Source of the DNA: a virus
Strand: one strand, 5' to 3'
Length of the DNA stretch: 26,313 bases
Virus record (IMG/VR): IMGVR_UViG_3300029787_000277
Span: 1-26,313 of that record
Shown here: positions 1 through 26,313 of the stretch, one piece after another
Position numbering within the stretch: position 1 is the stretch's first letter
Layout: the number at the start of each line of letters is the position of its first letter
Notes under the pieces: model-generated
The model's input: only the letters and a program-made list of their open reading frames with translations
Database searches by the model: none
Told to the model about the DNA's origin: nothing
Program-made: the position numbers and the translations under genes

Positions 1-2
1 CT

Positions 3-10121: not shown

Positions 10122-10142
10122 AATCGCTTCTCCACTTCCTAT

Positions 10143-10834: not shown

Positions 10835-10866
10835 TACTCTCACTCCTGTTATATGTTAGAATAGTA

Positions 10867-12423: not shown

Positions 12424-12441
12424 TTAACTCTCCCAAGTTAT

Positions 12442-12699: not shown

Positions 12700-13364
12700 C
12701 AATTACTCCCATTATATACACATTCAATTACTGCACAGTGGCGTTTACATAGCCCACTTGGTCTTGCGTTCCATACATCTTCTTTGTACGCAACCTCCAT
12801 ACGATCATAGTTCGCTAACCATTTATCCCACAAAGCAGGTTGCATGTCATCTGTATATTTTTGCTTAATAAGTTTTTTTGCTATAACAAATAACAACCCT
12901 GCATGAACTTTTTTTATTTTGGGAAAGTGTTTAAAGGTTGCCATAGCCATTAATTCAAGTTGTCCTTTGTCAGCGTATTGGGCAGACTTACTTGTTTTGT
13001 AGTCCACCACCCACGCAGTTTCTTTATCCATAATAACAAGATCAGCAATACCACGCCACCACACATTCTTAGCCTTAAACTCGCAAGGCTCTAGGTCCGC
13101 TGTCAAACCCATACGTATCTCTGTCAACTTGTTGCCACGTCTTCTACTTAAAGCTTCCAAGGGACCTCTCATGTAAGCAAACTTGTCAGGCACTGGCTTC
13201 CCATCACGAATAAACTCTTCAGCAACAAGGTGAGCCTCCGTTCCGTAACGCATAGCTTCGGTGTAAGATTCCTTATAATCTTTAGCTACCTTCATATGAT
13301 AGAACTGCTTCGGACATTGCTCAAAGCTTTTTACTCTACTAAATGACCACGGTGCTATGCTCAC
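12699..13364 (-). CDS. PD-(D/E)XK nuclease of the Cas4/AddB-like type with putative Fe-S cysteines
   Basis: A protein of 221 residues. The nuclease core is readable: GTEAH (41-45), GIADLVI with Asp108, VVDYKTSK with Asp121 and Lys123, then QLELMA (Gln135). Four cysteines, Cys17 in FEQCPKQFY and Cys206, Cys210 and Cys215 at the C-terminus, bracket the core as in RecB-type nucleases that hold a 4Fe-4S cluster (Cas4, AddB). The C-terminal spacing here is CX3CX4C. The likely role is trimming DNA ends during replication or recombination. The start is GTG at 13364, overlapping the upstream stop as GTGA, with GAGGG just upstream. Confidence 0.85.
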   Translation of the reverse strand: MSIAPWSFSRVKSFEQCPKQFYHMKVAKDYKESYTEAMRYGTEAHLVAEEFIRDGKPVPDKFAYMRGPLEALSRRRGNKLTEIRMGLTADLEPCEFKAKNVWWRGIADLVIMDKETAWVVDYKTSKSAQYADKGQLELMAMATFKHFPKIKKVHAGLLFVIAKKLIKQKYTDDMQPALWDKWLANYDRMEVAYKEDVWNARPSGLCKRHCAVIECVYNGSN

Positions 13365-13588
13365 TTTCCCTCTCTTTTTTTATTTGCAACATATCTTCGT
13401 TCCATTTCTTGAGGGCTTCTTTCTAATTTATAATCCATGGTACTTAAACGAATCAACCATTCGTCTGCATCTTTATCTAAAATAGAATTATCAACATAAT
13501 TAGGATCGTGAATTGCATGTTGTAAGTCAGCCCATTTCCTTCTCTTAAAAAGTTTTTTAGCTTCTTCTTTTTCTTCTTCATCTGTCAT
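13361..13588 (-). CDS. Small charged protein of unknown function between polymerase and nuclease
   Basis: A protein of 75 residues. It is highly charged with an acidic start (MTDEEEKEEAKK), a basic KRRKW patch and a C-terminal amphipathic ERSPQEMERRYVANKK. No family is recognised. It is locked into the operon by ATGA with the polymerase stop (13585-13588) and GTGA with the nuclease start (13361-13364). That favours the ATG at 13588 over the longer TTG start at 13594. A polymerase or nuclease partner is possible but is inference from position alone. Confidence 0.7.
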   Translation of the reverse strand: MTDEEEKEEAKKLFKRRKWADLQHAIHDPNYVDNSILDKDADEWLIRLSTMDYKLERSPQEMERRYVANKKREGK

Positions 13589-15393: not shown

Positions 15394-15515
15394 CACTCAC
15401 TCTTCCTCTTCTCTTCTTTTTGTTTTTTTAAAGCGCACACTGCACAATAAAACTTGCTTTGGTTATTTTGTTGAATAACTGCTTTTTCATTACAAAGATC
15501 ACATTTATTATTCAT
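15393..15515 (-). CDS. 40-residue CxxC/CxxC zinc-ribbon microprotein
   Basis: A short frame begins at the ATG at 15515, one base after the stop of the upstream gene (TGAAATG), and ends in a TGA that overlaps the polymerase ATG (TGATG). Its two CxxC pairs, CDLC at residues 5-8 and CAVC at 24-27, are separated by 15 residues and followed by a Lys/Glu tail (KKQKEEKRKSE). This is the layout of a minimal zinc ribbon. An AGGAAG sequence precedes the start at normal spacing. Perfect packing between two coupled genes and the paired cysteines make it very likely real. It may bind nucleic acid or the polymerase; its function is unknown. Confidence 0.85.
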   Translation of the reverse strand: MNNKCDLCNEKAVIQQNNQSKFYCAVCALKKQKEEKRKSE

Positions 15516-15516
15516 T

Positions 15517-15966
15517 TCACTCTTCCTCTTCCATTACGCACTCATACTCAATCCCAACATACGCCATGTTGTCTATGTAATGATCTTTTTCTAAAGGGGT
15601 TGTTTGCCGACGTGCCAACTTTGTCGCTTGGTGCATTATAGCTATGTCTCTCCCTGTAACATGTTTACCTGTGATAGCCGTATAAATGCGGGCGATGTGT
15701 TGGTGGTTATCAACAGGACTACCATAGTCTTTTAACCTATTACCACCTGTAAGGCTCACTGCTTCACGCAATAGATCACAACGGTCTAGTTTGTTGGCTT
15801 CTTTCTCAAACACCTCTCTTGGTGTGGATACTTTACTCATTAACTTGTAGGCATATCCATAAGATACCTTACAGGCTTTCGCTACCTCTGACGCTGTAGC
15901 TAATTTATTCTTTAGTAGGTATTGCCATACTTTATCTGCTTTCTTAGATCTTCTTACTCTCTTCAT
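15517..15966 (-). CDS. HTH domain fused to a DUF6378/MazG-like domain
   Basis: A protein of 149 residues. Residues 1-50 form a helix-turn-helix (KVWQYLLKNKLATASEVAKA then CKVSYGYAYKLMSK). From about 62 onward (LLREAVSLTGGNRLKDYGSP, then IARIYTAITG, TKLARR, DHYIDNMAYVGIEYE) it matches the helical DUF6378 type, related to MazG nucleotide pyrophosphohydrolases. Acidic residues in the last helices would bind metal. By analogy it may hydrolyse a nucleotide or alarmone to support phage DNA synthesis, with the HTH giving regulation or targeting. GGGAG lies before the ATG. The start overlaps the upstream gene by 23 bp. Confidence 0.75.
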   Translation of the reverse strand: MKRVRRSKKADKVWQYLLKNKLATASEVAKACKVSYGYAYKLMSKVSTPREVFEKEANKLDRCDLLREAVSLTGGNRLKDYGSPVDNHQHIARIYTAITGKHVTGRDIAIMHQATKLARRQTTPLEKDHYIDNMAYVGIEYECVMEEEE

Positions 15967-16150
15967 TCTCTTCTCCCTGTTCTTCGTGGTATACGTCTGT
16001 TAATATTGACGCTATTGTTAAACCTAAACTATCGGCTTTAATTTTAATTGCCTCATCAATAAGCCATTCAAAAATCTCTGTATCAAGATGCTCATACACA
16101 TTACCTCTTTTAAGCCCAATTTTGTCTAGACAATACTGCCTGTGTTTCAT
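15944..16150 (-). CDS. Small acidic protein of unknown function
   Basis: A protein of 68 residues. It is helical, with EWLIDEAIKIKADSLGLTIASILTDVY in the middle and an acidic end (HEEQGEENEES). The ATG overlaps the upstream stop as ATGA (16147-16150), and the 3' end overlaps the following gene by 23 bp. I recognise no family. The overlaps with both neighbours in the right phase support it being translated. Confidence 0.6.
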   Translation of the reverse strand: MKHRQYCLDKIGLKRGNVYEHLDTEIFEWLIDEAIKIKADSLGLTIASILTDVYHEEQGEENEESKKI

Positions 16151-16371
16151 GGCACTATTTCTCCGATAGCCTCTGGTCTTGGTATCGGGGGTGGTGTTAC
16201 ATGGTCAAGAATACCGTAAGTTAAATCACGGTCGCCTTCAAAACTTATTACTTTAGCACATGTGGGTGTGTGTCCCTCTGCTGAATTGTAATTTTTATAA
16301 AACGCATTGCACGTTGCTTCATCGTTGAACTCCATAACAATCAACGCAACGTATGTAACAACTTCTTTCAT
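16147..16371 (-). CDS. Small protein of unknown function
   Basis: A protein of 74 residues. It begins with a beta-like hydrophobic strand (EVVTYVALIVMEFND) followed by a helix and ends Pro-rich (TPPPIPRPEAIGEIVP). It contains two cysteines (in ATCNAF and PTCAKV). The alternation resembles a small ferredoxin-like alpha/beta fold, but no family is recognised. A GGGAG ribosome-binding site precedes the ATG and an ATGA overlap follows with the next gene. It comes directly after the AlpA-like regulator. Confidence 0.6.
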   Translation of the reverse strand: MKEVVTYVALIVMEFNDEATCNAFYKNYNSAEGHTPTCAKVISFEGDRDLTYGILDHVTPPPIPRPEAIGEIVP

Positions 16372-16380
16372 TCTCTCTCC

Positions 16381-16593
16381 CTATAATTTTTTTTCTGGAA
16401 ATTCCCAACTACCTGCTGTAGGTCTACTGTCTATCCATTCTTGAATATCACTCTCTAACCATGCAACAGCCCTTCTCCCAATTCGTATTGGTTTAGGAAA
16501 TTTATTTTCTTTTATAAGTTCGTACATAGTCGAGTTACTAATTAAAGTAATAGCTAAAACATCTTTTGCTCTAAGTAATTTTTTTACAGTCAT
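16381..16593 (-). CDS. AlpA-family helix-turn-helix regulator/excisionase-like
   Basis: A protein of 70 residues with the canonical AlpA layout: LLRAKDVLAITLISNSTMYE (helix-turn-helix), ENKFPKPIRIGRRAVAWLES (wing with the conserved FPxPxxIGxR-type run) and DIQEWIDSRP. AlpA proteins are small DNA-binding activators or excisionase-like factors in prophages and plasmids. It is the first gene after the 225-bp leader, with AAAAGGAG upstream, so it probably heads the replication operon and may control it. Its presence is suggestive of a temperate phage but does not prove it; no integrase is visible in the window. Confidence 0.85.
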   Translation of the reverse strand: MTVKKLLRAKDVLAITLISNSTMYELIKENKFPKPIRIGRRAVAWLESDIQEWIDSRPTAGSWEFPEKKL

Positions 16594-16818
16594 TTCTCTC
16601 TCCTTTTATTTTTATGGTCGCCCCTGCGTGAAAAATCAACGTGGCTTCTACAACACGTCCACAGGGACTAGATTTTTAGATGTCCTACCATCACAAGGTC
16701 ACAAGTCTATAGTCATATAGAAAGGAGTGACTTGCCCTTGTTGCAGTGGATAACAGCCCACAATTAAAACCAACGCTCTCACTGCTTACGCCCTAGTGGG
16801 TAAATTAACAAAACCCCA
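16594..16818 (-). promoter_or_regulatory. Leader region upstream of the AlpA-like gene
   Basis: There is no credible gene in this gap. It holds nested inverted repeats (CCCTG 16622-16626 with CAGGG 16662-16666, enclosing ACGTG 16639-16643 with CACGT 16654-16658). It also has a tandem TCACAAG-G-TCACAAG (16691-16705) and an 8-bp hairpin at 16793-16822 that overlaps the VRR-NUC stop. On the minus strand TTGATT, 17 bases, then CATAAA gives a weak sigma70-like promoter close to the gene start. These could form a regulated promoter with a structured leader. No tRNA is visible. Confidence 0.4.
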
Positions 16819-16822
16819 CTAG
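16793..16822 (-). terminator. Hairpin at the end of the VRR-NUC gene, possible weak terminator
   Basis: Perfect 8-bp arms (CTAGTGGG 16793-16800 and CCCACTAG 16815-16822) enclose a 14-base AT-rich loop and include the VRR-NUC stop codon. No U-tract follows on the minus strand, so intrinsic termination would be poor. It may protect or mark the 3' end of the upstream transcript. Confidence 0.4.
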
Positions 16823-17133
16823 TTTAACTCCAACTGTCTATCTCCCGACCAATTCAATAAATCTTCAACGATATTCATATTCTTCTCGTTACAAACAACG
16901 GCTATGCCCCCTGCTAATTCAATATCTTTTAGGTTTTTAAGCTGTAGTGCTGTAGGCTTGTTGCTACCTGCTTTGCACTCAATGCCAAAGAACGTACCTT
17001 TGTAGCACCCGACAATATCGGGAACACCTGACATACCGTAGCCACCTGTAACTGGATAAAAGTAATATGCTCCTAACAGCTTAAGCTGTCTTACCACTAC
17101 CTTTTTTACTTTTGCTTCTGGTGTTAGCACCAT
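16819..17133 (-). CDS. VRR-NUC domain nuclease
   Basis: A protein of 104 residues that is a stand-alone VRR-NUC domain, a PD-(D/E)XK nuclease type common in phages. The visible motifs are an early Glu in TPEAKVKK, YYFYPVTGGYGMSGVPDIVG with the catalytic Asp, FFGIECKAG with the Glu-Cys-Lys catalytic pair, and TALQLKNL with the conserved Gln. Eukaryotic and bacterial relatives (FAN1 type) cut branched or flap DNA, so resolving replication or recombination structures is plausible. GGGAG stands seven bases before the ATG. The 5' end overlaps the preceding gene by 53 bp. It is the last gene of the accessory block. Confidence 0.9.
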   Translation of the reverse strand: MVLTPEAKVKKVVVRQLKLLGAYYFYPVTGGYGMSGVPDIVGCYKGTFFGIECKAGSNKPTALQLKNLKDIELAGGIAVVCNEKNMNIVEDLLNWSGDRQLELN

Positions 17134-17356
17134 TCTTTATCTCCCTGTCTACGTCCCTATATATCATAAGTAGTGTCTCATCTGACAATACACCGTCAAA
17201 CATGACCTCTTTTGTTTTATGTGTTAGCTGATCTCTAACTGTTATTTTTACTTCCAAGTCTATCAAATCAGGCACTGGTTTCGGGAACTGGTCTCGTTGA
17301 GAAACCCGAAGGTTCCCCAACATATTGTTCAACCTGCTCGGCAGGTAGTTAACCAT
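17081..17356 (-). CDS. Small protein of unknown function carrying an in-frame palindrome
   Basis: A protein of 91 residues from the ATG at 17356, which overlaps the upstream stop by 8 bp; the longer frame to 17410 would overlap deeply and has no better signal. The N-terminus MVNYLPSRLNNML contains the palindromic repeat at 17332-17346, translated as LPSR. The middle (LIDLEVKITVRDQLTHKTKE) looks like beta strands, and the C-terminus is basic (ANTRSKSKKGSGKTA) where it overlaps the VRR-NUC gene. No family is recognised. The ribosome-binding site is weak, so coupling to the upstream gene is likely. Confidence 0.6.
   Translation of the reverse strand: MVNYLPSRLNNMLGNLRVSQRDQFPKPVPDLIDLEVKITVRDQLTHKTKEVMFDGVLSDETLLMIYRDVDREIKNGANTRSKSKKGSGKTA
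17332..17346. repeat. Palindromic repeat copy 1 (in coding sequence)
   Basis: ACCTGCTCGGCAGGT, 6-bp arms with a TCG centre on the plus strand. It lies in codons 4-9 of the 91-residue gene and reads LPSR there. It is one of seven copies in the window. Confidence 0.9.
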
Positions 17357-17645
17357 AGACCCAAAACTTGTCTTCACCTTGACCTCGCATACCGATACCT
17401 TTGACCTCATCGTCTAAAGCAGTACTCATAAAGCCTCTCACTTCTAACATCATAAGTACAGCTATTTTATCTTTCATCCACTTTGGTAGATCTTCCCAAC
17501 TGTCATAGCTGTCTTTTAATGAGTTGTCAATACAATTTATACCTAAACATATCACCTTTATTCTTTTAGTGTCTTTATCTAGGTATACATTGTATAAAGT
17601 ATCAGCAGGTAACTTACTGTGAACTTGTTTGTCAGAGTTGGACAT
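17349..17645 (-). CDS. Protein of unknown function
   Basis: A protein of 98 residues from MSNSDKQVHSKL at 17645. The frame continues upstream to 17678, but that would overlap the 290-residue gene further, and the overlap from 17645 is already 14 bp; ATG at 17657 is the alternative. The sequence runs from short beta-like strands (YNVYLDKDTKRIKVICLGIN) to an aromatic helix (DSWEDLPKWMKDKIAVLMML) and ends in GEDKFWVYG. The alternation is that of a compact small domain. No family is recognised. Confidence 0.55.
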   Translation of the reverse strand: MSNSDKQVHSKLPADTLYNVYLDKDTKRIKVICLGINCIDNSLKDSYDSWEDLPKWMKDKIAVLMMLEVRGFMSTALDDEVKGIGMRGQGEDKFWVYG

Positions 17646-18504
17646 AGAACATGCCATCACCAGAGTTAAACCCAACACCTTCTACATAATCTTTATGTGC
17701 GACCATGTTGAGGGTTGTTAACTTACCCATGAGCTGAGCGGGAAGTGTATCGCTCGTATAGGTTTCAACATCATCCTTTGGTGGTCTACTCATCTTGTGA
17801 AGTCCATACATTCTGACAACCTCAAAAGTCTGCTCGTCAAATTTATTGAACACACGTACAAATGCAACGTCCAAAGTCTTTTGCGATCTATCATTGTCTT
17901 CATCAACTGACGCAATATACTCTTGTACTTTATCACGTAAATCATTGTTAACAAACTCATAGCCCGATGCAACCATGTTGCGAAACTCTGACAACAACAC
18001 GTCCTCACCTGCACCAGAAGTCATGTTGTCCCAGTTTGTTCGCTTTGTTCTTTGTACAGTATACTTTATTGAGTTAAACGAATTTCTTATACCGTCAAGT
18101 TCAGCCTGTGCAATGTCTAGCGCATTAAAATTTCGTAAGTACTTCTTTGCGTTTTTAATACCCTTGTCTAGATGGACGGAGGCTGCAATTTTTTGTTGAT
18201 CCCCACCATTATACTTACCGTTAATAATGGTGTGTGCATATACTACAAACTTGCTGTCACCTACAACTTCAGTCTGCCAATCCCCGTAGGCTATATAGCC
18301 CATAGCAAATGGTTGTTCGTCCATGTAGACCCATAGATAATTTGCACCTTCATTACGTTGACCCGTTAGACCAAACTTAATACCACGCATATGTTGAGTT
18401 AAGGTTAACGCAAACTTTTGTAACGGTGTACTACGTAAACTCAACACGTCCTCATCTGTTACAGGCGTTAACGCACTAACTCTTGTATATAACTTATTAC
18501 TCAT
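17632..18504 (-). CDS. Protein of unknown function, accessory block
   Basis: A protein of 290 residues, soluble and mixed alpha/beta, without obvious nucleotide-binding or metal motifs. Visible segments include LWVYMDEQPFAMGYIAYGDW and FVVYAHTIINGKYN, which look like beta strands of a core. A long helical middle (about 115-215) and a C-terminal YVEGVGFNSGDGMFYVQL follow. It may be structural or DNA-associated; nothing decides. It has a clear AAGGAGAGAGA upstream of the ATG, and its 3' end overlaps the next gene by 14 bp. Confidence 0.7.
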   Translation of the reverse strand: MSNKLYTRVSALTPVTDEDVLSLRSTPLQKFALTLTQHMRGIKFGLTGQRNEGANYLWVYMDEQPFAMGYIAYGDWQTEVVGDSKFVVYAHTIINGKYNGGDQQKIAASVHLDKGIKNAKKYLRNFNALDIAQAELDGIRNSFNSIKYTVQRTKRTNWDNMTSGAGEDVLLSEFRNMVASGYEFVNNDLRDKVQEYIASVDEDNDRSQKTLDVAFVRVFNKFDEQTFEVVRMYGLHKMSRPPKDDVETYTSDTLPAQLMGKLTTLNMVAHKDYVEGVGFNSGDGMFYVQL

Positions 18505-18518
18505 TTCTCTCTCCTTCT

Positions 18519-18764
18519 CTAATGTATTGTTTCTCTTTGTTTATGTCCGTACAACTGAAACATTGTTTGATTAGCAATTATATTTACGTCAGCCAATCTC
18601 TGAAGACGTTTAGACTTCTTCACCTTTCTCCCAACAACGTGCATCTGCGAGTTGGTCAAATTCTCTGGCAATCCCATCATCTGAGACACCCACAACATGA
18701 CCTCAATTGCTTCCTTATGATGCTTCCATGCTTTTACATGTGCATTGTGTTTTTTATTTTTCAT
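18519..18764 (-). CDS. Small basic protein of unknown function
   Basis: A strongly basic protein of 81 residues with many His and Lys (MKNKKHNAHVKAWKHHKEA), a hydrophobic helix (IEVMLWVSQMMGLPENLTN) and a second basic patch GRKVKKSKRLQRL. Nucleic-acid binding is plausible from composition. The ATG overlaps the upstream stop as ATGA (18761-18764), so it is probably co-translated with the 359-residue protein. No family is recognised. Confidence 0.65.
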   Translation of the reverse strand: MKNKKHNAHVKAWKHHKEAIEVMLWVSQMMGLPENLTNSQMHVVGRKVKKSKRLQRLADVNIIANQTMFQLYGHKQRETIH

Positions 18765-19840
18765 TTTCTCTCCTTTACTATTTTTTCGTCACTGAGTGTA
18801 CCAACAAGTCCGAACACCTTGTTGACATAAGAATTGTACTTTGCTCTTACTTCTGATCCACTAGTAATATTTGCAAAGTCTACATTGCGTAGAAAATCTA
18901 CACCCAACTGCATACGCATGGGGTGTTGGTCTGTACTCATAATCTTAAGTAGTTTACCATGTTGTTCCTTCGGTCTTTCTATATGGCGAGGGTGTGTCCA
19001 CCCATACCCTGTGTACTGATGTCTTGAAGTAGCATCGCCTGTGCTAAGAAACCCATTTAGTTCTTCAACTGCTTTCTCTACATACTCCCTACGTTCTCTC
19101 CATTGATTAGGACTATTGCTAAAATCGGGCATGATGAAACTATGCATAACATCTAACCACTTGTAGAACACGTCTGCATGGGGCTTGATCTTTGCTTTAT
19201 ATTTTGTGTCAACACGTTTACGTTCGTGTTGTATCGTCCACGTATCACCAATTACCTTCCAATCGTATCTGTCACTACCAACTTTGCGAGCAAAGGTCAG
19301 ATACTTCTTGTCGTCTTTCACAGACATTGGAAAACCATTTTGCAGGGTATTATACGCATTAGGGGGATAAAACGGATTGTATCTGCTCTTGGGCAATAGG
19401 TATTGTGTGCCATTGCTGATGTACTGCTTACCATTGTGAACAATAAATCGTAGTCCTAGTGGTAACGTGTTCTCAAGAAAGGTATAACGAGAACAATGTG
19501 CACAATTACCTGACCCATTGCGTATTCGTATAGTCTCAATGTCACCCTTCGGTGATAGCGTCCACACAATCGGTGCAAGGGCTAGAGTTTCTTTCTCTGT
19601 CGGTGGCACTTTGTTACCCCAAGACTTGAACTTTGGATCTCCTGCACAGTAACCGTCATAGATCATGTACTTGTACGCTGATACCTTTATCATATGTTCA
19701 TGCTTGCGTGACCGTCTACCCACAGGTCTGATGTTATCCTCCCTTGTGTGGTTCTTACTGACAACAGGTTTGGTTGTGTTGTAGTTCTCTGCCATCTGAG
19801 CAAAGTCTTCGACTGATTGGTTTGTATCTCTGTAATTCAT
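18761..19840 (-). CDS. Protein of unknown function with a CxxC pair
   Basis: A protein of 359 residues. The N-terminal 50 residues are polar and basic (GRRSRKHEH). A beta-rich middle carries NGSGNCAHCSRYTFLE (Cys113, Cys116), then repeated Tyr/Asn-rich turns (YISNGTQYLLPKSRYNPFYP) and a helical C-terminal third with conserved-looking aromatic motifs (FYKWLDVMHSFIMPDF). A single CxxC with nearby His suggests at most one metal site. It is bound by ATGA overlaps on both sides (19837-19840 and 18761-18764). I know no family. The density of Trp and Tyr argues for a folded enzyme-like or recognition domain. Confidence 0.7.
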   Translation of the reverse strand: MNYRDTNQSVEDFAQMAENYNTTKPVVSKNHTREDNIRPVGRRSRKHEHMIKVSAYKYMIYDGYCAGDPKFKSWGNKVPPTEKETLALAPIVWTLSPKGDIETIRIRNGSGNCAHCSRYTFLENTLPLGLRFIVHNGKQYISNGTQYLLPKSRYNPFYPPNAYNTLQNGFPMSVKDDKKYLTFARKVGSDRYDWKVIGDTWTIQHERKRVDTKYKAKIKPHADVFYKWLDVMHSFIMPDFSNSPNQWRERREYVEKAVEELNGFLSTGDATSRHQYTGYGWTHPRHIERPKEQHGKLLKIMSTDQHPMRMQLGVDFLRNVDFANITSGSEVRAKYNSYVNKVFGLVGTLSDEKIVKERK

Positions 19841-20043
19841 TCTGCTTCTCCTTTTACAATTTTATATTCACCTTGATCGTTTAATTCGTATATGCGTATC
19901 TCATGGTGATCGTATGGTTTCTCTTTCTTTGCTTTATTTAATTCAGCTTCGGCAGATTTTATGTTGTCAAAGATTCCACGATCATAATCTGCGGACTGCA
20001 TAGCTAAATCTAGACTAGACTTAACTATATATATTTTTGTCAT
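19837..20043 (-). CDS. Small protein of unknown function
   Basis: A protein of 68 residues. It starts with a strand (MTKIYIVKSSLDLAM), has a helix (IKSAEAELNKAKKEKP) and ends in two strands (HHEIRIYELNDQGEYKIVKG), a beta-alpha-beta-beta layout. No family is recognised. TAAGGAG precedes the ATG, and the stop overlaps the next ATG (ATGA). A palindrome copy lies in the 52-bp gap between it and the VWA gene. Confidence 0.6.
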   Translation of the reverse strand: MTKIYIVKSSLDLAMQSADYDRGIFDNIKSAEAELNKAKKEKPYDHHEIRIYELNDQGEYKIVKGEAE

Positions 20044-20068
20044 ACTCTCTCTCCTTAATTTAATTGAA

Positions 20069-20087
20069 CTACCTGCCGAGCAGGTAG
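20069..20087. repeat. Palindromic repeat copy 2 (intergenic)
   Basis: An extended palindrome with 8-bp arms CTACCTGC and GCAGGTAG around CGA, so the core ACCTGCCGAGCAGGT (20071-20085) is inverted relative to copy 1. It lies between the VWA gene and the next gene. No U-tract follows on the minus strand, so it is not a standard terminator. Confidence 0.9.
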
Positions 20088-20095
20088 CATATTGT

Positions 20096-21301
20096 TTATA
20101 GGTCTCTTGATTTAATATGAATTACTTGACCGACACTTGGATTGGCACTCTTGTTGTCCAAGATACACCACAGTGTAGGACAATCCCAACTGCCCCATGA
20201 TCCACCCAAGTAACCATCAGTCAATATGATAGTAGCTTGTGGCTTGATACCATGCTCTGCCATGTACTTAGGAACACACTCTACCATAGTACCACCACCT
20301 CCGCTTGGCTTGGTTGACTTAGCAATGTTGTCGATTTCGTGCATCTCGTACTTCTCTGCACGACACACCTCTGTATCCCAGTATAGTATCCACACGCATG
20401 ACGGTGTAGCAACTCGACATATCTCCACCACTTCTGTTAAGCTAACACTTATCTCTCTTTGACCAATAGAGCCAGATGCATCTATACAATACACCAAGGC
20501 ATCAACCTTTTCAGCTATACCACTTGGCATGAATACACCCCTTGGAAATCTGCGGTTGCGTCGCTTGAACGTAGCCCTGTCCTTACCCACACATGTCTCA
20601 TACATGAAGTCTCGTAGCTTCTCTTGCCACGGCACTTGAGTTTCAAGTAATTCCTCAAGGGTACGGTCTCCACCACTACCTAGCTTACTTGCTACCATCA
20701 CGCCCTCACGTATAGCACCCTCGACTTCTTTGATATGTTCTTCCTTATCTTCTGCCGACATGTCTTGGGCTGTTTCCCAACCATGAGTGTCAGTAGGTTC
20801 ACCCCACCCTTCGGGGGGAGGGTTCTTCCCCCCATCTGTTTCCTCATGAAGTAACCAGAACACTTCAGCCGTATCCATACCACGATACTTCTCGTCCAAC
20901 AGTCCGATAACCCTACCATCAATCACAGGTCTGGTACAAAACTTACTGTCCTTGTTCTCGTCTTCGATCTCAAGGTTGATAACAAAATCCATAGCACAGT
21001 TCGCAAGATGTGCGTTGATCTTCCATAGATGTTGCCATGTGATAAGATGCCGATACGCTTTGTGCTTGCACTCATGGACTACGACATATCGTAACCCACT
21101 GTCAGAGATACTAGCCACGAACTTGCGTCCGTATGATTCGTTTCTCCCATCAGTGTTCGCTGTTGGTACATCATCCTTGATGCTTCGTTCGCCGATCATC
21201 AGCACTGCACCCAAGGCAAGGTAAGTCATATTGCCCATGACTGCGATCACGGCTTTGTCCAACCGTTGTTCTTCTGTTAACGCTCTTCCTACACTAAGCA
21301 T
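20096..21301 (-). CDS. VWA-domain protein with N-terminal HExxH metallopeptidase-like domain (DUF2201-like)
   Basis: A protein of 401 residues. The N-terminal domain carries YVVVHECKHKAYRH with HECKH at 76-80, a zincin motif. The linker is Pro/Gly- and acid-rich (155-205). The C-terminal VWA domain has the MIDAS metal set: DASGSIG (274-280), Thr338 in GGGGTMVE and Asp362 in LTDGY. This layout matches the DUF2201 family, which occurs with MoxR AAA+ ATPases. Here the ATPase gene lies one small gene upstream. Such pairs remodel or load cofactors into targets. ATG at 21301 has GGAGGG seven bases before it; the ATG at 21316 lies upstream of that site, so it is rejected. The start overlaps the upstream stop by 8 bp. 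Confidence 0.85.
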   Translation of the reverse strand: MLSVGRALTEEQRLDKAVIAVMGNMTYLALGAVLMIGERSIKDDVPTANTDGRNESYGRKFVASISDSGLRYVVVHECKHKAYRHLITWQHLWKINAHLANCAMDFVINLEIEDENKDSKFCTRPVIDGRVIGLLDEKYRGMDTAEVFWLLHEETDGGKNPPPEGWGEPTDTHGWETAQDMSAEDKEEHIKEVEGAIREGVMVASKLGSGGDRTLEELLETQVPWQEKLRDFMYETCVGKDRATFKRRNRRFPRGVFMPSGIAEKVDALVYCIDASGSIGQREISVSLTEVVEICRVATPSCVWILYWDTEVCRAEKYEMHEIDNIAKSTKPSGGGGTMVECVPKYMAEHGIKPQATIILTDGYLGGSWGSWDCPTLWCILDNKSANPSVGQVIHIKSRDL

Positions 21302-21569
21302 TGTTTGTCCCTCCATTGTTTAAGTCCTTCCTATGTTTGTTTTCAATTCTAATAAATTCTACAGTCCTCGCTTGTGGTCTGCAAAAATCACAACGACACT
21401 TGAAACGTCTTAGTTTCTCTCTTGTGCCAACAACCTCACATATCTTCTCTACAGAAGGTGAGCGAGAACGTGTATAACTATTTAATTTTGTATAGTTATC
21501 ACGATGTTTCACTCTGGCTCTATGTGCCATAGTGCGTCGAAATGCTAGTCCTCTATTATGATACCCCAT
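21294..21569 (-). CDS. Small basic Cys-cluster protein between ATPase and VWA genes
   Basis: A very basic protein of 91 residues (RRTMAHRARVKHRDN, KLRRFKCRCDFCRPQARTVE). The tight CxCxxC cluster (FKCRCDFC) with an additional Cys in EKICEVV could hold one zinc ion. No family is recognised. It starts two bases after the AAA+ stop, with GGTGTAGGT upstream, and overlaps the VWA gene start by 8 bp. It is therefore expressed with both, and an adaptor role in the complex is a reasonable inference. Confidence 0.65.
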   Translation of the reverse strand: MGYHNRGLAFRRTMAHRARVKHRDNYTKLNSYTRSRSPSVEKICEVVGTREKLRRFKCRCDFCRPQARTVEFIRIENKHRKDLNNGGTNNA

Positions 21570-21571
21570 AC

Positions 21572-22747
21572 CTACACCTTCCCAGTTGTAAACATGTAGT
21601 TGTACTTACCTGCAAACTCTTGAAACTTCGGGGTGTTCATCACCATACTACGAGCAAAATACTTCTCATCTTTTACACCATTGCCGAACATACCTTTGGC
21701 TTCATTACTCAACCGATCAAGATATGTCATAAACGGTGTGACAAACTCTCTGTCCATAGATGCAAGTGCTTTAAATATTACCATACATGTTGAACTCGCG
21801 TCTTGTGGCAACGGTGCGTTGTTTGGATCTTTGAGTATGTCCTCACGCTTCACCAACTTGTCTGCCAAGGTCACAAAGGTCATAATGTCCTTACCTGTGT
21901 GCGCCCCAAGAGTACCCATGAGTAGACATGTCAACGTGTGCGTATCAAACTTGTCACGCTGATCCAAGATGTGCGATGCTTTCTCAAGGGAACGACCTGT
22001 CACGAATGAAACTCTACTTGGGTCTTTCGGGTGAAAGATAGCAAGGTTATCTTCGGGTCTCTCCACGTCCTCAAACGCTGCGAATATCTGTGGGTTGTCT
22101 TTGGCATAACCAAGAACGATAGGGTTGATCTTCTTACCCTTCTTGTTGATACCCCATTCAATCCACTCCATGTTGTTGCTCTTACGCAAGTCAATGAATG
22201 TTAGACGATTGCATGTGTGCATACGCATCATGTCACCAACACCTTCTGAACCTTTGTTGGTTGTGGCATAGACGATGCTCCCTTCGGGTAGCTTCATGTT
22301 ACCCAACTGTCGCTCTTGCATTAGTCGTGTGAGTGCAAGTTGTACAGACTGATTGGCTTTACCCAACTCGTCGAGCATAATAATCACAGGCACGTTGAAA
22401 TGAATACCAAATGCTTCGTTCGGTGCATAGGTCACATACTTGCGAACAACAGGTTCAACTTGCTTCTCAACTGCTTTATCAACTGCTGATTGTATCTCCT
22501 CATTCACAGTCTGTCTTATCTCGTTGATGTCTGGTAACATCACGTCACCAAGATCAAGCATGCTACAGTCCACGTAACATAGAATGTGTTTAGGTAGTAT
22601 CTCGCCAACCATAGGCAGGGTTGAAGATTTACCATTACCCATATCACCTCTCAACATGTGTGTGATATCTGACCCAAGCAAGGCGATTGCCTGTACTGCG
22701 TTGTCGATGTTCATCTGAAAGTTAGTCGTTGCTATATTCTTAGCCAT
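21572..22747 (-). CDS. MoxR-type AAA+ ATPase
   Basis: A single-ring AAA+ protein of 391 residues. Walker A is GDMGNGKSS (34-42), Walker B is VIIMLDELGKA (121-131, Asp126 and Glu127), sensor 1 is VYATTNKGSEG (159-169), and arginine-rich QLALTRLMQERQLG (136-149) lies in the inter-subunit region. A long Gln/Glu/Val helix (79-103) is inserted between Walker A and B. The C-terminal lid runs to about 390. MoxR ATPases act with VWA-domain partners to insert metals or remodel protein complexes (CbbQ/CbbO and RavA/ViaA types). The matching VWA gene lies 270 bp downstream. AGGAG precedes the ATG. Confidence 0.9.
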   Translation of the reverse strand: MAKNIATTNFQMNIDNAVQAIALLGSDITHMLRGDMGNGKSSTLPMVGEILPKHILCYVDCSMLDLGDVMLPDINEIRQTVNEEIQSAVDKAVEKQVEPVVRKYVTYAPNEAFGIHFNVPVIIMLDELGKANQSVQLALTRLMQERQLGNMKLPEGSIVYATTNKGSEGVGDMMRMHTCNRLTFIDLRKSNNMEWIEWGINKKGKKINPIVLGYAKDNPQIFAAFEDVERPEDNLAIFHPKDPSRVSFVTGRSLEKASHILDQRDKFDTHTLTCLLMGTLGAHTGKDIMTFVTLADKLVKREDILKDPNNAPLPQDASSTCMVIFKALASMDREFVTPFMTYLDRLSNEAKGMFGNGVKDEKYFARSMVMNTPKFQEFAGKYNYMFTTGKV

Positions 22748-22766
22748 TATATTTACTCCTTGTTGT

Positions 22767-22781
22767 ACCTGCTGAGCAGGT
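22767..22781. repeat. Palindromic repeat copy 3, variant centre
   Basis: ACCTGCTGAGCAGGT in the 41-bp gap between the 314-residue gene and the AAA+ gene. The arms are identical to the other copies, but the centre is TGA instead of TCG. It lies upstream of the AAA+ ribosome-binding site. Confidence 0.9.
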
Positions 22782-22788
22782 GGGTTAA

Positions 22789-23733
22789 TTAGCCGAGTGT
22801 CGGCAGGGTTGAAAGAACGTCATCTACTTGACGCTTCGTGTTGCTACGCAATACTTCATCATGGCGTAGCCCATCTGGTGTGACCCCTTGCAATGCGTAC
22901 TCCATCTTCCTTACTGCATCTTTTAGTATGGGGTCATCATCAAAATTATCGTGCTTAATTAAGTCAAGTATGCTGTACACGTTTGTAACCAACGTATCCT
23001 TGAAGCCGTTCTTGACTTGCTCACCTTTGTCGTTCTCACTGTAGTCGAGACGTAGGGACATGTTCTGAAGAGGTGTGATAAGACGCATAAACATGTCACG
23101 CTTCATCTCTTTGAACACTTCTACGTTTTGCTTTGCGATCAACTCGTCTATCACTTCTTGCCGTTCCTTCTCGACACCTTGCATGGGGTGGCTCATGGGT
23201 GGTATGCGCACTGTCTCCAACGTGAAGTACAAACGCTTGTCCATATCTTCGAGAGACAAGTAGTCGGCTCTGTTGTACAGATCACCAAATACTTTCGGTG
23301 CTTCAACGTCACGCATATGTTCATACATGGGCATCAGTATAGATTTGAATTTGTAGAAGTCCGATTGCATGGCTTGTAAAGTATTCCATATACCGTCTGT
23401 TTGGTTGCTACCAAAGTATCTGCCATTAGAACATATACGTGTCTTCTCATTCCCCAAAGGCAGGGTTGCGCCAGTATAGTACCTACGTGTTGCAGAGACA
23501 TGTGTGTGTATTGTTGTCAGTTCTTCGCAATGTCCCATCAAGTCTTTGTACAGACCTGTGACTTCTCTGGCTTTAGGACTGTTCACCCCATGTTGGTCGT
23601 TGATCTGTTTAGTTATTCGGCTGTCCAACTTCTTGGTACGATAGTCACCGATATTCAAATTGATCCCCAAGAAGCTTGAGGATATGTCTGGCACTACAGA
23701 CGTGTTGAGTGCTGTTGTTGTCATCATGTTCAT
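22789..23733 (-). CDS. Helical partner protein of the MoxR/VWA module, unknown function
   Basis: A protein of 314 residues from the ATG at 23733, which has AAAGGAG seven bases upstream and overlaps the previous stop as ATGA; the longer frame to 23799 is rejected. The protein is mainly helical and charged. Visible segments are SSFLGINLNIGDYRTKKLDS, then a His/Thr-rich ELTTIHTHVSATRRYYTGAT, and a C-terminal DDVLSTLPTLG. Position directly before the MoxR gene resembles DUF3150 proteins, which accompany phage and bacterial MoxR/VWA pairs, but I cannot confirm the similarity by eye. A substrate-binding or adaptor role is inference. Confidence 0.65.
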   Translation of the reverse strand: MNMMTTTALNTSVVPDISSSFLGINLNIGDYRTKKLDSRITKQINDQHGVNSPKAREVTGLYKDLMGHCEELTTIHTHVSATRRYYTGATLPLGNEKTRICSNGRYFGSNQTDGIWNTLQAMQSDFYKFKSILMPMYEHMRDVEAPKVFGDLYNRADYLSLEDMDKRLYFTLETVRIPPMSHPMQGVEKERQEVIDELIAKQNVEVFKEMKRDMFMRLITPLQNMSLRLDYSENDKGEQVKNGFKDTLVTNVYSILDLIKHDNFDDDPILKDAVRKMEYALQGVTPDGLRHDEVLRSNTKRQVDDVLSTLPTLG

Positions 23734-23999
23734 GATTTTTCTCCTTTCGGTTTGATTGTTCTTTGAACACTTTCTTTTAAGTCGTCTAAAACTTCCCATG
23801 TTCTACATACGATACACGTTGGTTCGTAATCATCGCATCTTACACCATACTCCCTGTAAACGTGGTTAGTCAGTCTCTTTAAAGATTTTTTCAATTTATC
23901 TTCTCCCTTTTCTGGCATGTTACGTGCGAACACGTCGTTGAGAACGTCTTCGATATCGTCGGCTCTCATGAGCATCTTTTCTTTTGCTACTTCACTCAT
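23730..23999 (-). CDS. Small helical protein of unknown function
   Basis: A protein of 89 residues. Acidic and basic helices (ADDIEDVLNDVFARNMPEKG, KLKKSLKRLTNHVYREYG) precede a short Cys-containing region CDDYEPTCIVCRTWE, which could bind one metal ion. AAAGGAG lies before the ATG, and an ATGA overlap links it to the 314-residue gene. No family is recognised. It is the second gene after the strong promoter. Confidence 0.65.
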   Translation of the reverse strand: MSEVAKEKMLMRADDIEDVLNDVFARNMPEKGEDKLKKSLKRLTNHVYREYGVRCDDYEPTCIVCRTWEVLDDLKESVQRTIKPKGEKS

Positions 24000-24011
24000 A
24001 GTCTCTCTCCT

Positions 24012-24242
24012 TTACGGTTTGTTTAAATATAGTAGGTCTTCTTTTCTGCTTACCACAATAATGTTTGACTTGTGCATTGGTACTGTGCATCGTATAACTT
24101 TCTTTGCGTTTATCTCGCCACAATCCATACAGGTTGAAAAACCTGCTTGTGTCAAACGCCTGATGTCATACTCTTCGCCACAGTCTGTGCATGTTGCCCA
24201 CCTGCTCGGCAGGTCGATAAACTGCTTTGTATTTTTTACCAC
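24012..24242 (-). CDS. Zinc-ribbon protein, TraR/DksA-like C4 motif
   Basis: A protein of 76 residues. It has TCTDCGEEYDIRRLTQAGFS then TCMDCGE, two CxxC pairs 17 residues apart with the CxxCGxxI..RL pattern seen in C4 zinc fingers of the TraR/DksA kind. It lacks the long coiled coil that DksA inserts into RNA polymerase, so it is not a full DksA. GTG at 24242 is chosen because AAAGGA stands seven bases upstream; a TTG at 24269 is the longer alternative. It carries an in-frame palindrome copy (24200-24214). It is the first gene after the promoter at 24280-24308, so it may be an early regulator. Confidence 0.7.
   Translation of the reverse strand: MVKNTKQFIDLPSRWATCTDCGEEYDIRRLTQAGFSTCMDCGEINAKKVIRCTVPMHKSNIIVVSRKEDLLYLNKP
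24200..24214. repeat. Palindromic repeat copy 4 (in coding sequence)
   Basis: ACCTGCTCGGCAGGT inside the zinc-ribbon gene, read as LPSR just before the first CxxC. The reading frame relative to the palindrome is the same as in copy 1. Confidence 0.9.
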
Positions 24243-24278
24243 AACACGTTCCTTTCTGATAGAGTTCAATTATGTTTA

Positions 24279-24308
24279 TAGTATAGCATAAGTATACTAA
24301 AATGTCAA
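24279..24308 (-). promoter_or_regulatory. Strong sigma70 promoter with inverted-repeat operator
   Basis: On the minus strand a perfect TTGACA (24308-24303) is followed by a 17-base spacer and TATACT (24285-24280, five of six consensus bases). A perfect inverted repeat, TAGTATA-N7-TATACTA (24279-24299), covers the -10 and most of the spacer. Transcription would begin about 30 bases before the zinc-ribbon gene and run through the MoxR/VWA block. The overlap of the repeat with the -10 is typical of repression by a dimeric protein. This is the best promoter in the window. Confidence 0.8.
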
Positions 24309-24556
24309 TAAATGCTAGAACATTAGTTTTTCATGGTTTTGGTGTTTAAACCTGTGTTTTTGTGTATTGTGCTATATTGTTCCTTATTGTAACCTCGTGT
24401 TTTCCTGTAAGTATTTGAAAAGATTGAAATGTTACAATGTTACCTTTTTCTGAGAATTGAGCAATCCTGAGAGGTGCGAATGTTGGGAGGTTACAAAGGT
24501 ATCTGCGAGACCTCATCTCGTACGGTTTGGGTACAATTTTTCTAAAAGGTAACATT

Positions 24557-24580
24557 ATATAATATATATATATATATATA
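24557..24580. repeat. TA dinucleotide tract
   Basis: Nine uninterrupted TA repeats (24563-24580) follow ATATAA, directly after one of the GGTAACATT copies. This is the lowest-stability DNA in the control region and a natural melting site. It is also prone to slippage in copying or assembly. Confidence 0.9.
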
Positions 24581-24610
24581 GTTTTTTGCTTCATTGCTAA
24601 CTACTACAAG

Positions 24611-24640
24611 ACAGGTTTAGGCAGGTTTAGGCAGGTTTAG
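24611..24640. repeat. Triple 10-bp tandem repeat
   Basis: Three copies of GCAGGTTTAG (the first begins with A instead of G) lie head to tail. At about one helical turn per unit, proteins bound to each copy would sit on the same face of the DNA. Confidence 0.9.
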
Positions 24641-24746
24641 AATTGTAACTTTTTGCCCTAAAAAAAGGTAACATTAGGTTACATTAGAGGGGGTAAAAGT
24701 TACATTGCCTTATTTGTATGGACGAAAGAGGTAACATTGCAATTCT

Positions 24747-24921
24747 ACCTGCTCGGCAGGTGAACACGTTGCTACATTGAGGCGCAACGCTACACTAGAA
24801 ACTGGTATATTACACCAACGTGTTTACCTGCTCGGCAGGTGAGAGACACATTGCTACACCGAAAGGCGCGTGGCTACACATGTTGTCAGACAATAAAATA
24901 GTTTTTACCTGCTCGGCAGGT
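24747..24921. repeat. Palindromic repeat copies 5-7, array at about 80-bp spacing
   Basis: Exact ACCTGCTCGGCAGGT occurs at 24747-24761, 24826-24840 and 24907-24921, spaced 79 and 81 bp. The first two are each followed by GA and then similar GCTACA-containing sequence (GTTGCTACATTGAGGCGC and ATTGCTACACCGAAAGGCGC), so the unit is longer than the palindrome. Confidence 0.9.
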
Positions 24922-25010
24922 AGTTCGCCCGTCCTTGTTTTGTTGGGGGAACATTTGGGGAACATCTGTTTGACTTGGCGAGGCGCAACGCTAAAAATGT
25001 AACTGGTATC

Positions 25011-25029
25011 AAAGGCCCCCGAAGGGGCC
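25011..25029 (-). terminator. GC-rich UUCG-loop hairpin, minus-strand terminator
   Basis: A 6-bp all-GC stem (25014-25019 with 25024-25029) has a loop that reads UUCG on the minus strand. It is followed by UUUGAU, a short U-tract. It lies six bases after the stop of the 33-residue membrane protein gene, so it ends that transcript before the control region. Confidence 0.75.
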
Positions 25030-25035
25030 AATGAC

Positions 25036-25137
25036 TTATAGTGAACAGAAGAAGACTATTATTAGTACCACAGTAGCACCTGCAACTAATGCCGCTACTA
25101 TGTTCTTCAACCAAGCCATAAGAAGATCATGATCCAT
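25036..25137 (-). CDS. 33-residue single-span membrane microprotein
   Basis: A short frame starts with an ATG that shares one base with the previous stop (TAATG) and ends just before a terminator. The N-terminus is charged (MDHDLLMAWLKN), and residues 13-33 form one hydrophobic span (IVAALVAGATVVLIIVFF then CSL). The coupling and the terminator directly after it make a real gene likely. A holin-like, anti-holin or membrane-anchored role is possible, but no lysis gene is visible nearby, so the function stays open. Confidence 0.75.
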   Translation of the reverse strand: MDHDLLMAWLKNIVAALVAGATVVLIIVFFCSL

Positions 25138-25562
25138 TATAACTCTACCTTAAGTTGTATGTTTAAGATTTTGTGTTGGCTTCCAAATATACCCTGCGCA
25201 ACATCATGTAACAAATTCATTACTTCAACTTGCATAAGATATTCTCTATACCAATCTACTGTTACTATCATAGCAGTATTGTCAGGCATGTCCGCGTGTC
25301 CCTCTTCAGGTAAAGGATCAGGAACGTGTGTCCAAGCCGCTGCTTCTACTTCTTCGTAGTATTCTCGTAACGCCACACATTCAGTATCTCCTACAATAAA
25401 CGGGTCTACCGTTGTCATTGTCGCGTCTACCTTCTCTTGTACCTCGTGCATACGACTGTCTATTAAGTCTGGTATACTTATTGCACTAATTGTTCTTGGT
25501 CTACAGTGTACAATACCTGTTGTGGTATCTATACCTGTAACTTTTCTTGTTAGTTCTGGCAT
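25137..25562 (-). CDS. Protein of unknown function
   Basis: An acidic protein of 141 residues with an ideal AGGAGG five bases before the ATG. The N-terminal part looks beta-rich (VTGIDTTTGIVHCRPRTISA), the middle is helical and acidic (EYYEEVEAAAWTHVPDPLPE) and the C-terminus is amphipathic (LLHDVAQGIFGSQHKILNIQ). No family is recognised. It is coupled to the following membrane microprotein by TAATG, and its leader begins with repeat hairpin A. Confidence 0.65.
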   Translation of the reverse strand: MPELTRKVTGIDTTTGIVHCRPRTISAISIPDLIDSRMHEVQEKVDATMTTVDPFIVGDTECVALREYYEEVEAAAWTHVPDPLPEEGHADMPDNTAMIVTVDWYREYLMQVEVMNLLHDVAQGIFGSQHKILNIQLKVEL

Positions 25563-25580
25563 TGTTGCCTCCTATATTAA

Positions 25581-25623
25581 TGTTGAGTGAAGCAGGCACC
25601 GATTGTGCCTGCCCCGTTGTTGT
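25581..25623 (-). repeat. Intercistronic hairpin repeat A
   Basis: A 43-bp sequence containing perfect 8-bp arms GCAGGCAC (25592-25599) and GTGCCTGC (25605-25612) around a five-base loop. It is homologous over its full length to repeat B at 25763-25806. On the minus strand it is followed by TTCACTCAACATTAATATAGGAGG, the leader of the 141-residue gene. It has no U-tract. Confidence 0.85.
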
Positions 25624-25781
25624 TACCGTAAACTCCGATACTCGTTGTCCTTAGATCGTTCATAACTTCTAAGAAGTTTCACAAGCTTGCGCTTGTATCG
25701 AAGTTTGTGAAGTTCTGTTAGTCTACGCTGTGTCTTACAACGATACAGAACTTCTTGGTAGATGTTGCGTGAAGTAGGCAC
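25623..25781 (-). CDS. Possible small basic protein, or structured RNA segment
   Basis: The frame of about 52 residues ends at the TAA at 25623-25625, between hairpins A and B. It has no ATG; a GTG at 25781, inside hairpin B, is the only conventional start giving most of the frame. The sequence is very basic (RCKTQRRLTELHKLRYKRKL). The same DNA contains a 10-bp inverted repeat (GAAGTTCTGT 25709-25718 with ACAGAACTTC 25745-25754) and further complementary TTCACAA/TTGTGAA stretches, so a structured RNA is an equally good explanation. An ORF running from 25856 overlaps the neighbouring gene and is not believable in full. Confidence 0.3.
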   Translation of the reverse strand: MPTSRNIYQEVLYRCKTQRRLTELHKLRYKRKLVKLLRSYERSKDNEYRSLR

Positions 25782-25806
25782 TAGATTGTGCCTACCTCGT
25801 TGTTGT
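25763..25806 (-). repeat. Intercistronic hairpin repeat B
   Basis: The homologue of repeat A, with arms GTAGGCAC (25774-25781) and GTGCCTAC (25788-25795) around a six-base loop. Relative to A, one C-G pair has become T-A with both sides changed, so the stem is kept. It directly follows the stop of the partial gene on its right, with no U-tract. Confidence 0.85.
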
Positions 25807-26313
25807 CTAAGACTGGTCAAGCTCTTTCTCAAACTTTTCCAACTTTCCGTCTGCAATCGCTTTGATTGCTTTCAGTGTCTGTGAGAAGTTAAGCCCACCG
25901 AGCACGTCAAACGTATCATCGAGTTTGAAGTTCTTAAGAACAATGCCTTCAGTGCCTACTAAATTAATAAGCTTAGAGACCTCATCTGCTATACGAACTT
26001 CTGCAGATCGGGAAGTATTGGCTCCGCCGCTTTCTTCCAAAGACAACATAGCTTTACGGGCTTTTGCTAGAACGCTGTAAACGTCGCCCCTAGCATCTTC
26101 CCTGTCACGCTTCGCTGCGATAACATCATCGCCATGCTTACCGTCTTTGATGTTGTCCATAGTCCACAATGCGGCCTCAAACCCTGCGAATGAAGCAATC
26201 GTAGGGAACAAGTACTCATCAAACCATACCTTCGTAGAAGTAGATTTGTGCGCATTCGGTCCACTATGCGGGTATAAATCCGTTACAACAAACCCGTCGT
26301 CGTATAGGCTTTT
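25807..26313 (-). CDS. Protein of unknown function, 5'-partial (runs off the right edge)
   Basis: The frame is open from the right edge, in phase from base 26313, so the gene begins outside the window; 168 residues are visible. The first part (KSLYDDGFVVTDLYPHSGPN, then TKVWFDEYLFPTIASFAG) looks like a folded domain with aromatic residues. The rest is helical and charged (DVIAAKRDREDARGDVYSVL, KLINLVGTEGIVLKNFKLDD) and ends LEKFEKELDQS. No family is recognised. A TTG at 26211 would give a shorter frame but has no reason to be preferred. Hairpin B follows its stop. Confidence 0.65.
   Translation of the reverse strand, partial: KSLYDDGFVVTDLYPHSGPNAHKSTSTKVWFDEYLFPTIASFAGFEAALWTMDNIKDGKHGDDVIAAKRDREDARGDVYSVLAKARKAMLSLEESGGANTSRSAEVRIADEVSKLINLVGTEGIVLKNFKLDDTFDVLGGLNFSQTLKAIKAIADGKLEKFEKELDQS

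Follow-up and report, generated by a model that had tools for sequence, protein, structure and literature searches.

The window, i.e., the whole 26,313-nucleotide stretch of the virus record IMGVR_UViG_3300029787_000277, contains a set of early genes into which a sigma-70 promoter points leftward (TTGACA-17-TATACT, 11 of 12 consensus positions; 24280–24308, minus strand). The first gene after the promoter encodes a zinc-ribbon protein (24012–24269). Beyond it lie, all on the minus strand as well, an early gene of 316 amino acids whose relatives give a weak DUF3150-like signal (22789–23739), an AAA/MoxR-type ATPase gene (PHROG 1297; 21572–22747), the VWA/DUF2201 gene that served as the query for finding relatives (N4 gp25-like; 20096–21316) and a 109-aa gene (17349–17678). 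On the other side of the promoter, a non-coding region with three palindromes and other short repeats (24309–25136) is a candidate control or origin region. Further on, a homologue of the F25 protein, the proposed binder of the palindromes, is encoded on the minus strand and runs off the contig end (25807–26313; hmmsearch E=4.6e-6).

Seven palindromes of the early region

The sequence-only reading claimed seven copies of the palindrome ACCTGCnnnGCAGGT, and all of them were found where it had placed them, within 17.3–24.9 kb. On the plus strand, ACCTGCTCGGCAGGT occurs at 17332, 24200, 24747, 24826 and 24907; the copy at 20071, with a CGA centre, is the same site inverted, and that at 22767 has a TGA centre. 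A search of the whole record for ACCTGCNNNGCAGGT returned these seven sites and no others, in agreement with the claim that the family is confined to this part: neither 1–17331 nor the stretch beyond 24921 holds a copy. With three mismatches allowed, ACCTGCNNNGCAGGT gives 14 strand-matches, compared to a mean of 0.26 and a maximum of 2 in shuffled sequences, which places the seven copies far above a random frequency.

The leftmost candidate operator (17332–17346) follows the stop codon of the 109-aa gene and precedes the next start, a junction that holds GTTAGGGATTCCCTAAC in one relative (L069:9013) and two GTTAGTG sites in another (L073:11053/11091). The inverted copy (20071–20085) sits between the stop of the VWA/DUF2201 gene and the next ribosome-binding site, where L069 is also occupied (L069:6662). 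The TGA copy (22767–22781) separates the 316-aa gene from the start of the ATPase gene, and a palindrome of their own is found 0–80 nt upstream of this ATPase in 86 of 118 relatives. The fourth site (24200–24214) is not in a gap: it overlaps the opening codons of the zinc-ribbon gene, at about +66 relative to the predicted early start and 65 nt from the -10 box; L069 has GTTAGGGAATCCCTAAC at the equivalent place in its zinc-ribbon gene. The three remaining copies (24747–24761, 24826–24840 and 24907–24921) form an array in the non-coding region and are kept in the relatives L060 and L008. The statement that the palindromes are not terminators holds, since no U-tract of an intrinsic terminator is found at the sites in 23900–26313 or in the flanks of all sites, which were inspected as well.

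Palindrome families in related viruses

The set of loci was widened through VWA alignments; no match was obtained when bacterial and archaeal genomes were scanned in this way. Among 150 non-redundant loci, 125 have the same early region with their own family of at least three identical gapped palindromes (3–14 copies per relative, 14–19 bp; at most 2 in shuffled controls), i.e., several sites of the same sequence per genome above chance. Fewer than three copies were found in the other 25 loci, many of which are short. The letters differ from those of the window (GTTAGTGnnnCACTAAC, GTTAGGGnnnCCCTAAC, GTAGTGnnnCACTAC and others) and vary by lineage, further examples being GTTAGTG in L101, GTTAGTCC in L106, GTTAGGG in L068 and GTTATAC in L155; the positions are homologous and often at gene junctions. 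The presence of differently lettered palindromes at homologous spots indicates that the sites stay where they are although their letters are replaced. Stem letters are fixed, the centre is free and some palindromes have no loop. Deviant copies are altered on one side in 148 cases and compensated in 8, a bias compatible with a dimer that reads half-sites in DNA.

In 64 of 67 loci, compared to 14.2 expected, the equivalent region contains a promoter with at least 10 of 12 sigma-70 consensus positions, and a candidate operator is usually found 40–126 nt downstream of a strong sigma-70 promoter. The site 5' of F25 lies upstream of the F25 promoter and about 80 nt before the F25 start site.

Covariation of an F25 helix with the half-site

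F25 is the first early gene and its product is predicted to be all-helical. Family searches in Pfam, PHROG and NCBIfam returned nothing, sequence and fold comparisons with the PDB revealed no relative, the AlphaFold model, which is that of the monomer only, matched no known DNA-binding fold, and tblastn revealed no homologue among the isolated phages of the collection. A Rhizobium phage relative carries 12 GTTACC-n6-GGTAAC sites, some of them within the polA and helicase genes, and has no detectable F25 homologue. The window's own F25 is incomplete, its N-terminal part being missing.

In a partial Mantel scan of 63 loci that covered 1,874 15-residue windows from seven protein families, the top 12 windows all belong to a single segment of F25 (r 0.557, compared to 0.377 for the next family, the ATPase; label permutations p 0.001, maximum 0.315). 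Visual inspection of 29 loci had already drawn attention to this segment ahead of the unbiased scan, and the later set includes these 29. The covarying positions 1, 5, 8, 12 and 13 lie on one face of the predicted helix 90–122. The best residue-base pair joins helix residue 13 to half-site base 10, the inner base: G is accompanied by Asp in 34 loci and Asn in 3 (37 in total), and C by Lys in 15 and Arg in 4 (19 in total). No locus contradicts this code (no D/N with C, no K/R with G); the key position, which is D109 in L101, is neutral (A, Q or T) in six loci and the base is not defined in one. Among 1,081 columns of F25, the VWA protein, the ATPase and g336, the F25 column reaches a z of 19.6 with a purity of 0.97, compared to a z of 6.9 and a purity of at most 0.75 for the best control column. 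On a tree built from VWA, ATPase and g336, the pair switches about 11 times independently with 0 mismatches across 56 loci, whereas the null gives a minimum of 9 mismatches (p<=0.00005). The covariation and its independence of gene relatedness are, like the operator families and their positions, computational observations. In the window, the F25 segment that matches the covarying helix (REDARGDVYSVLAKARKAMLSLE; 26035–26103, minus strand) has Lys at the key position, as the code predicts for the half-site ACCTGC.

Judged by covariation, sites and a phage-encoded protein change specificity together. Most probably, a phage protein that had not been described before docks at the seven palindromes, and the likely binder is F25, which would bind as a dimer.

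Candidate operators, their possible mode of action and the alternatives

The model as a whole, in which the palindromes are operators recognised as double-stranded DNA by F25, an early phage protein that would be symmetric and probably a dimer, appears to us highly probable. One long F25 helix would read each half-site in the major groove, and the letters would be identical across the operators of one phage because a single protein reads them all. Between phages, the helix and the entire operator set would have changed together, many times. It is also fairly probable that F25 represents a new class of DNA-binding protein, with a fold unmatched in the PDB, one recognition helix with a simple, repeatedly rewritten code and operator sets that switched letters with it about 11 times within one phage group. 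Of the candidates proposed earlier, a phage protein's binding site gains support and a mobile palindromic element does not; no result speaks for a signal in packaging or recombination.

How F25 would act is more weakly inferred. Since an operator lies about 35–120 nt into the transcript and others recur at gene junctions, bound F25 might act as a roadblock that retards or halts RNA polymerase on its way from the strong early sigma-70 promoter. As F25 accumulates, the early genes would be turned down, and the operator upstream of its own start site could provide autoregulation. Temporal early shut-off by such a roadblock is favoured by the position of the operator downstream of a strong promoter and by the absence of a tyrosine integrase (PF00589) from 18 near-complete records of 60–68 kb. 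However, operators are also found on the F25 side and in the array, i.e., outside the main leftward early transcript, where a pure roadblock model has no need of them.

Alternatively, F25 may bind as an activator or as an antitermination-like factor that aids polymerase through the early operon. Sites along the operon, and one in an activator-like position before the F25 start site, are compatible with this, but the operon promoter is already near consensus (10–12 of 12) in almost all loci and no activator is called for, so that this role seems unlikely. It is quite improbable that the operators are read by another protein and that F25 merely travels along as a linked module. As no gene is closer to the first sites than F25, exchange of a linked block would yield a correlation, and the ATPase, likewise flanked by sites, does correlate weakly. 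Nevertheless, the signal resides mainly in one F25 helix rather than in the whole protein (partial r 0.557 vs 0.216), and the residue-base rule stays uncontradicted through 11 switches.

We give slightly less credit to centromere-like or origin-organising sites (ParB/parS-like or read by a replication initiator) near the phage origin. Three or more copies are indeed located in a non-coding stretch that is rich in repeats and a possible origin, but many others occupy gene junctions across 8 kb or more, ParA/ParB are absent among the window proteins scanned and the F25 profile has no ParB-like PDB match. RNA hairpins in early transcripts, recognised by a protein or an RNase and serving translation control, processing or mRNA protection, are very unlikely. 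Many copies are just 5' of ribosome-binding sites on the transcribed strand, and each of the copies is able to fold into a short stem; however, a fixed stem with a free centre is the opposite of a structure-recognised hairpin, the pairing is mostly broken on one side, certain palindromes are loopless and the site 5' of F25 precedes the F25 promoter. A mobile palindromic element, to which several copies in one region and the two copies in a 30-bp tandem inside coding sequence of L079 might point, can practically be dismissed: no clean insertion was seen, copies are in place in near relatives, distant ones have unrelated letters at the same junctions, and nothing is common to the copies beyond 15–19 bp.

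Control of many identical palindromic operators by a single global regulator is familiar from KorA/KorB of plasmid RK2, which are helix-turn-helix proteins. Among phages, the stoperators of the temperate Cluster A mycobacteriophages (L5, Bxb1) are asymmetric 13-bp sites, mostly in one orientation, bound by the helix-turn-helix repressor Rep (PMC6550527, PMC9283540). Both systems have many short phage-specific sites spread along the genome in the path of transcription and one phage protein (putative here), and motif and protein diverge together between phages. The Cluster A repressor stops elongating polymerase, with which the position of the candidate operators here, downstream of the promoter, is compatible. 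In contrast, the sites described here are palindromes of 14–19 bp rather than asymmetric 13-mers. A tyrosine integrase was not found in the 18 long records, and F25 gave no fold or family match. The SPBRE of Bacillus phage SPbeta, a 15-bp motif at promoters of one prophage, was likewise first recognised from sequence alone as a repeated intergenic element; binding was shown later for MrpR, a degenerate tyrosine recombinase and phage master regulator that maintains lysogeny (PMC10516654). In Cluster K mycobacteriophages, asymmetric 13-mers (SAS) are found at translation starts and 17-bp inverted repeats with imperfect half-sites and variable spacers (ESAS) travel with a gene family; these, too, are conserved repeats that immediately precede the starts of only some genes, although a binding protein and lineage-wide rewriting are not described in the parts of that report consulted (PMC3203893).

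It is a long-standing question how a regulator can alter its specificity if numerous sites have to follow, and few natural examples are well sampled. The present set comprises about 70 genomes in which protein and operators are paired; several of these genomes are close relatives with different letters, and the one-residue, one-base rule is testable by swapping. The model would also give a role to the first early gene in a large group of uncultivated phages, a gene outside all family libraries.

Other binders were considered. One segment of the zinc-ribbon protein correlated with the sites in a 14-locus subset, but its gene is absent from L063 and others and it cannot be a universal partner. 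The HTH_17 protein (10143–10439), which is conserved and encoded near replication genes, has a helix-turn-helix region that hardly varies between lineages whose sites differ. Hairpin promoters of the N4-type virion RNA polymerase should be recognised by loop or structure, with a free stem, contrary to the pattern here. The window proteins scanned gave no RNA polymerase hit. Finally, a small conserved protein encoded on the opposite strand adjoins the first operator (L069:953-1555); it has no match in Pfam and by eye resembles a terminase small subunit.

Palindrome families in the window and its relatives

The palindrome ACCTGCNNNGCAGGT occurs in exactly seven copies in the whole 26,313-base record. 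The sequence-only reading had placed them at 17332, 20071, 22767, 24200, 24747, 24826 and 24907 and confined them to one half of the window; a search of the record bears out all seven and finds zero copies in 1-17331 and zero past 24921, while shuffled sequences give 0.26 matches with three mismatches permitted. The six-base arms are invariant around a centre of TCG, CGA or TGA. Copies are found at gene junctions in the upstream part of the minus-strand block, in a non-coding region (three copies) and, once, within the first codons of a zinc-ribbon gene. The record probably represents part of a ~60-kb phage; its DNA polymerase is closest to those of Rhizobium phages RHph_TM (36 %) and Pseudomonas phages KPP25/phiR18 (35 %). 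The minus-strand genes include primase/helicase, SSB, SNF2 helicase, PD-(D/E)XK nuclease and PolA, as well as an AAA ATPase (21572-22747) and a VWA/DUF2201 protein (VWA, 20096-21316) resembling N4 gp25.

All seven sites are kept in one near-identical contig (L060) and four are present in another, a short fragment (L008). Relatives with 55-60 % VWA protein identity contain no sites with the window half-site, ACCTGC; they carry families of their own, namely GTTAGTGnnnCACTAAC (8-9 copies), GTTAGGGnnnCCCTAAC (8 copies) and TAGCCAnTGGCTA. The relatives' families are restricted to ~8 kb in two near-complete 60-kb genomes and are likewise restricted in a third record (L106); a fourth (L252) has 11 sites over 14 kb. 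Three wider scans brought the set to 150 non-redundant loci, mostly metagenomic fragments without known host. In 125 of them one gapped palindrome occurs three or more times, and Markov-shuffled versions of the same loci yield two copies at most. With site types assigned by exact arms, about twenty different half-sites are seen across the loci. The isolated Rhizobium phage RHph_TM3_14A, whose host is known, carries GTTACC-n6-GGTAAC twelve times over its early block, at positions from 8501 to 34046, in some cases inside the polA and helicase genes.

A fixed stem with a free centre suggests recognition as duplex DNA. Ninety loci with a clear consensus hold 588 exact sites. Among their deviant sites, 148 are changed in one half only, a count that includes possible G-U pairs, and where both halves are changed 8 match and 7 do not; the shuffle control gave 1 one-sided and 4 unmatched sites.

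Covariation of F25 with the half-site

The candidate binder is F25, encoded by the first early gene (25807-26313, minus strand), with the first operator on one side and the array on the other. F25 was detected in 74 loci, and by eye a similar-looking gene occupies the same place in further loci that lack a match to the F25 profile. The window homologue is detected at E 4.6e-6, its gene running off the contig end. Pfam, PHROG and NCBIfam gave no worthwhile match; no relatives were found in isolated phages, nor was an F25 homologue detected for the RHph_TM3_14A sites. AlphaFold2 predicts an all-helical protein (pLDDT 88, pTM 0.61), with no convincing match to the model in the PDB.

An F25 segment that tracks the half-site was first spotted by eye and then recovered by an unbiased scan, in which 1,874 windows of 15 residues from seven protein families were tested for correlation with half-site similarity while controlling for identity in VWA, ATPase and the 316-aa protein (22789-23739). 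This one segment accounts for all of the top 12 windows (0.557), compared with 0.377 for the next-best family and just 0.216 for F25 taken whole. The strongest residue-base pair within F25 links helix residue 13 to the innermost half-site base. Among 62 loci, an inner G goes with Asp (34) or Asn (3) and an inner C with Lys (15) or Arg (4), the residue is Ala, Gln or Thr in six, and the opposite combinations, Asp/Asn and C or Lys/Arg and G, do not occur in any locus. The window, with Lys and C, fits the rule. One base further out, the partner is the neighbouring residue 12, and the outer bases pair with residues 1, 5 and 8; these covarying positions share one face of the predicted helix. In known contacts, acidic residues approach cytosine and basic ones guanine on the partner strand, a chemistry that the pairing of residue 13 matches.

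On a tree of VWA, ATPase and the 316-aa protein, this pair undergoes 11 switches with zero mismatch in 56 loci, and random placement of equally many switches produces at least 9 mismatches (p<=0.00005). The column z is 19.6 for F25 versus at most 6.9 for control columns of the other three proteins; the tree and Mantel tests lower the effect of shared ancestry and linked exchange, some of which remains.

Site positions and a possible mode of action

Site positions are homologous between loci despite different letters. Upstream of the ATPase start, 86 of 118 loci have a site within 0-80 nt; 44 of 124 have one ahead of VWA, and in 50 of 68 a site precedes F25 by ~100-160 nt. The counterpart of the zinc-ribbon site in L069 has the same place in the gene. 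Between F25 and the 316-aa gene, a sigma-70 promoter (at least 10/12) is present in 64 of 67 loci versus 14.2 expected, and in most loci with this promoter 41-126 nt separate the -10 box from the start of the nearest downstream operator. In the window, 65 nt separate the end of the promoter (TTGACA-17-TATACT) at 24280 from the start of the operator. Where F25's own promoter is recognisable, the operator is upstream, at roughly -80.

What the comparisons establish, as sequence patterns, is the set of operators, where they lie and that they change together with one F25 helix. F25 very probably binds the operators as a symmetric dimer. Because transcription from a strong promoter would run into an operator soon after its start, and into others at gene junctions, bound F25 would plausibly act as a roadblock, turning down early transcription. 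A role in lysogenic immunity is less likely than temporal control, since a search of 18 records of 60-68 kb yielded no tyrosine integrase.

A literature search found no paper describing these palindromes. Cluster A mycobacteriophage stoperators are similar in comprising many genome-wide sites that share one phage-specific sequence (PMC6550527, PMC9283540). However, stoperators are asymmetric and the F25 sites, being palindromic, are not classed with them. The next nearest systems are SPBRE/MrpR (PMC10516654) and the Cluster K start-associated sequences (PMC3203893).

Other sequence elements

The non-coding region 24309-25136 also holds a second repeat family, CCAGTT...GTAGCGTTG(C/A)GCC (24779-24808 and 24980-25009, minus sense), AATGTTACC-like repeats, a TA run and a ten-base tandem repeat, CAGGTTTAGG (24614-24643). 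Since the second family is common to the window and relatives (L073:4150-4450), the region may be a replication origin. A G-rich tract, for example GGGGGTGGGGTGGGG, immediately precedes the F25 operator in L101, L102, L110, L118, L155, L073 and others; it adjoins a gene resembling terminase small subunit and is possibly a packaging or G-quadruplex signal. A conserved TGAAACCAGTTTTT stretch upstream of the VRR-NUC gene (L069:9030-9070, L073:11110-11125, L066:3440-3480), in two cases directly 3' of a hairpin, is possibly a terminator variant. At L079:13315-13361, two operators form a 30-bp tandem in the coding start of the gene preceding the ATPase, and the encoded peptide is a near-repeat of DNVSxTLT. 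Elsewhere in the window, a conserved HTH_17 protein with a nearly constant HTH region is encoded beside the SSB gene (10143-10439, minus strand), and in-frame 21-bp tandem repeats (1286-1502) lie in a 2,062-aa protein with LPD/DarB-like similarity.
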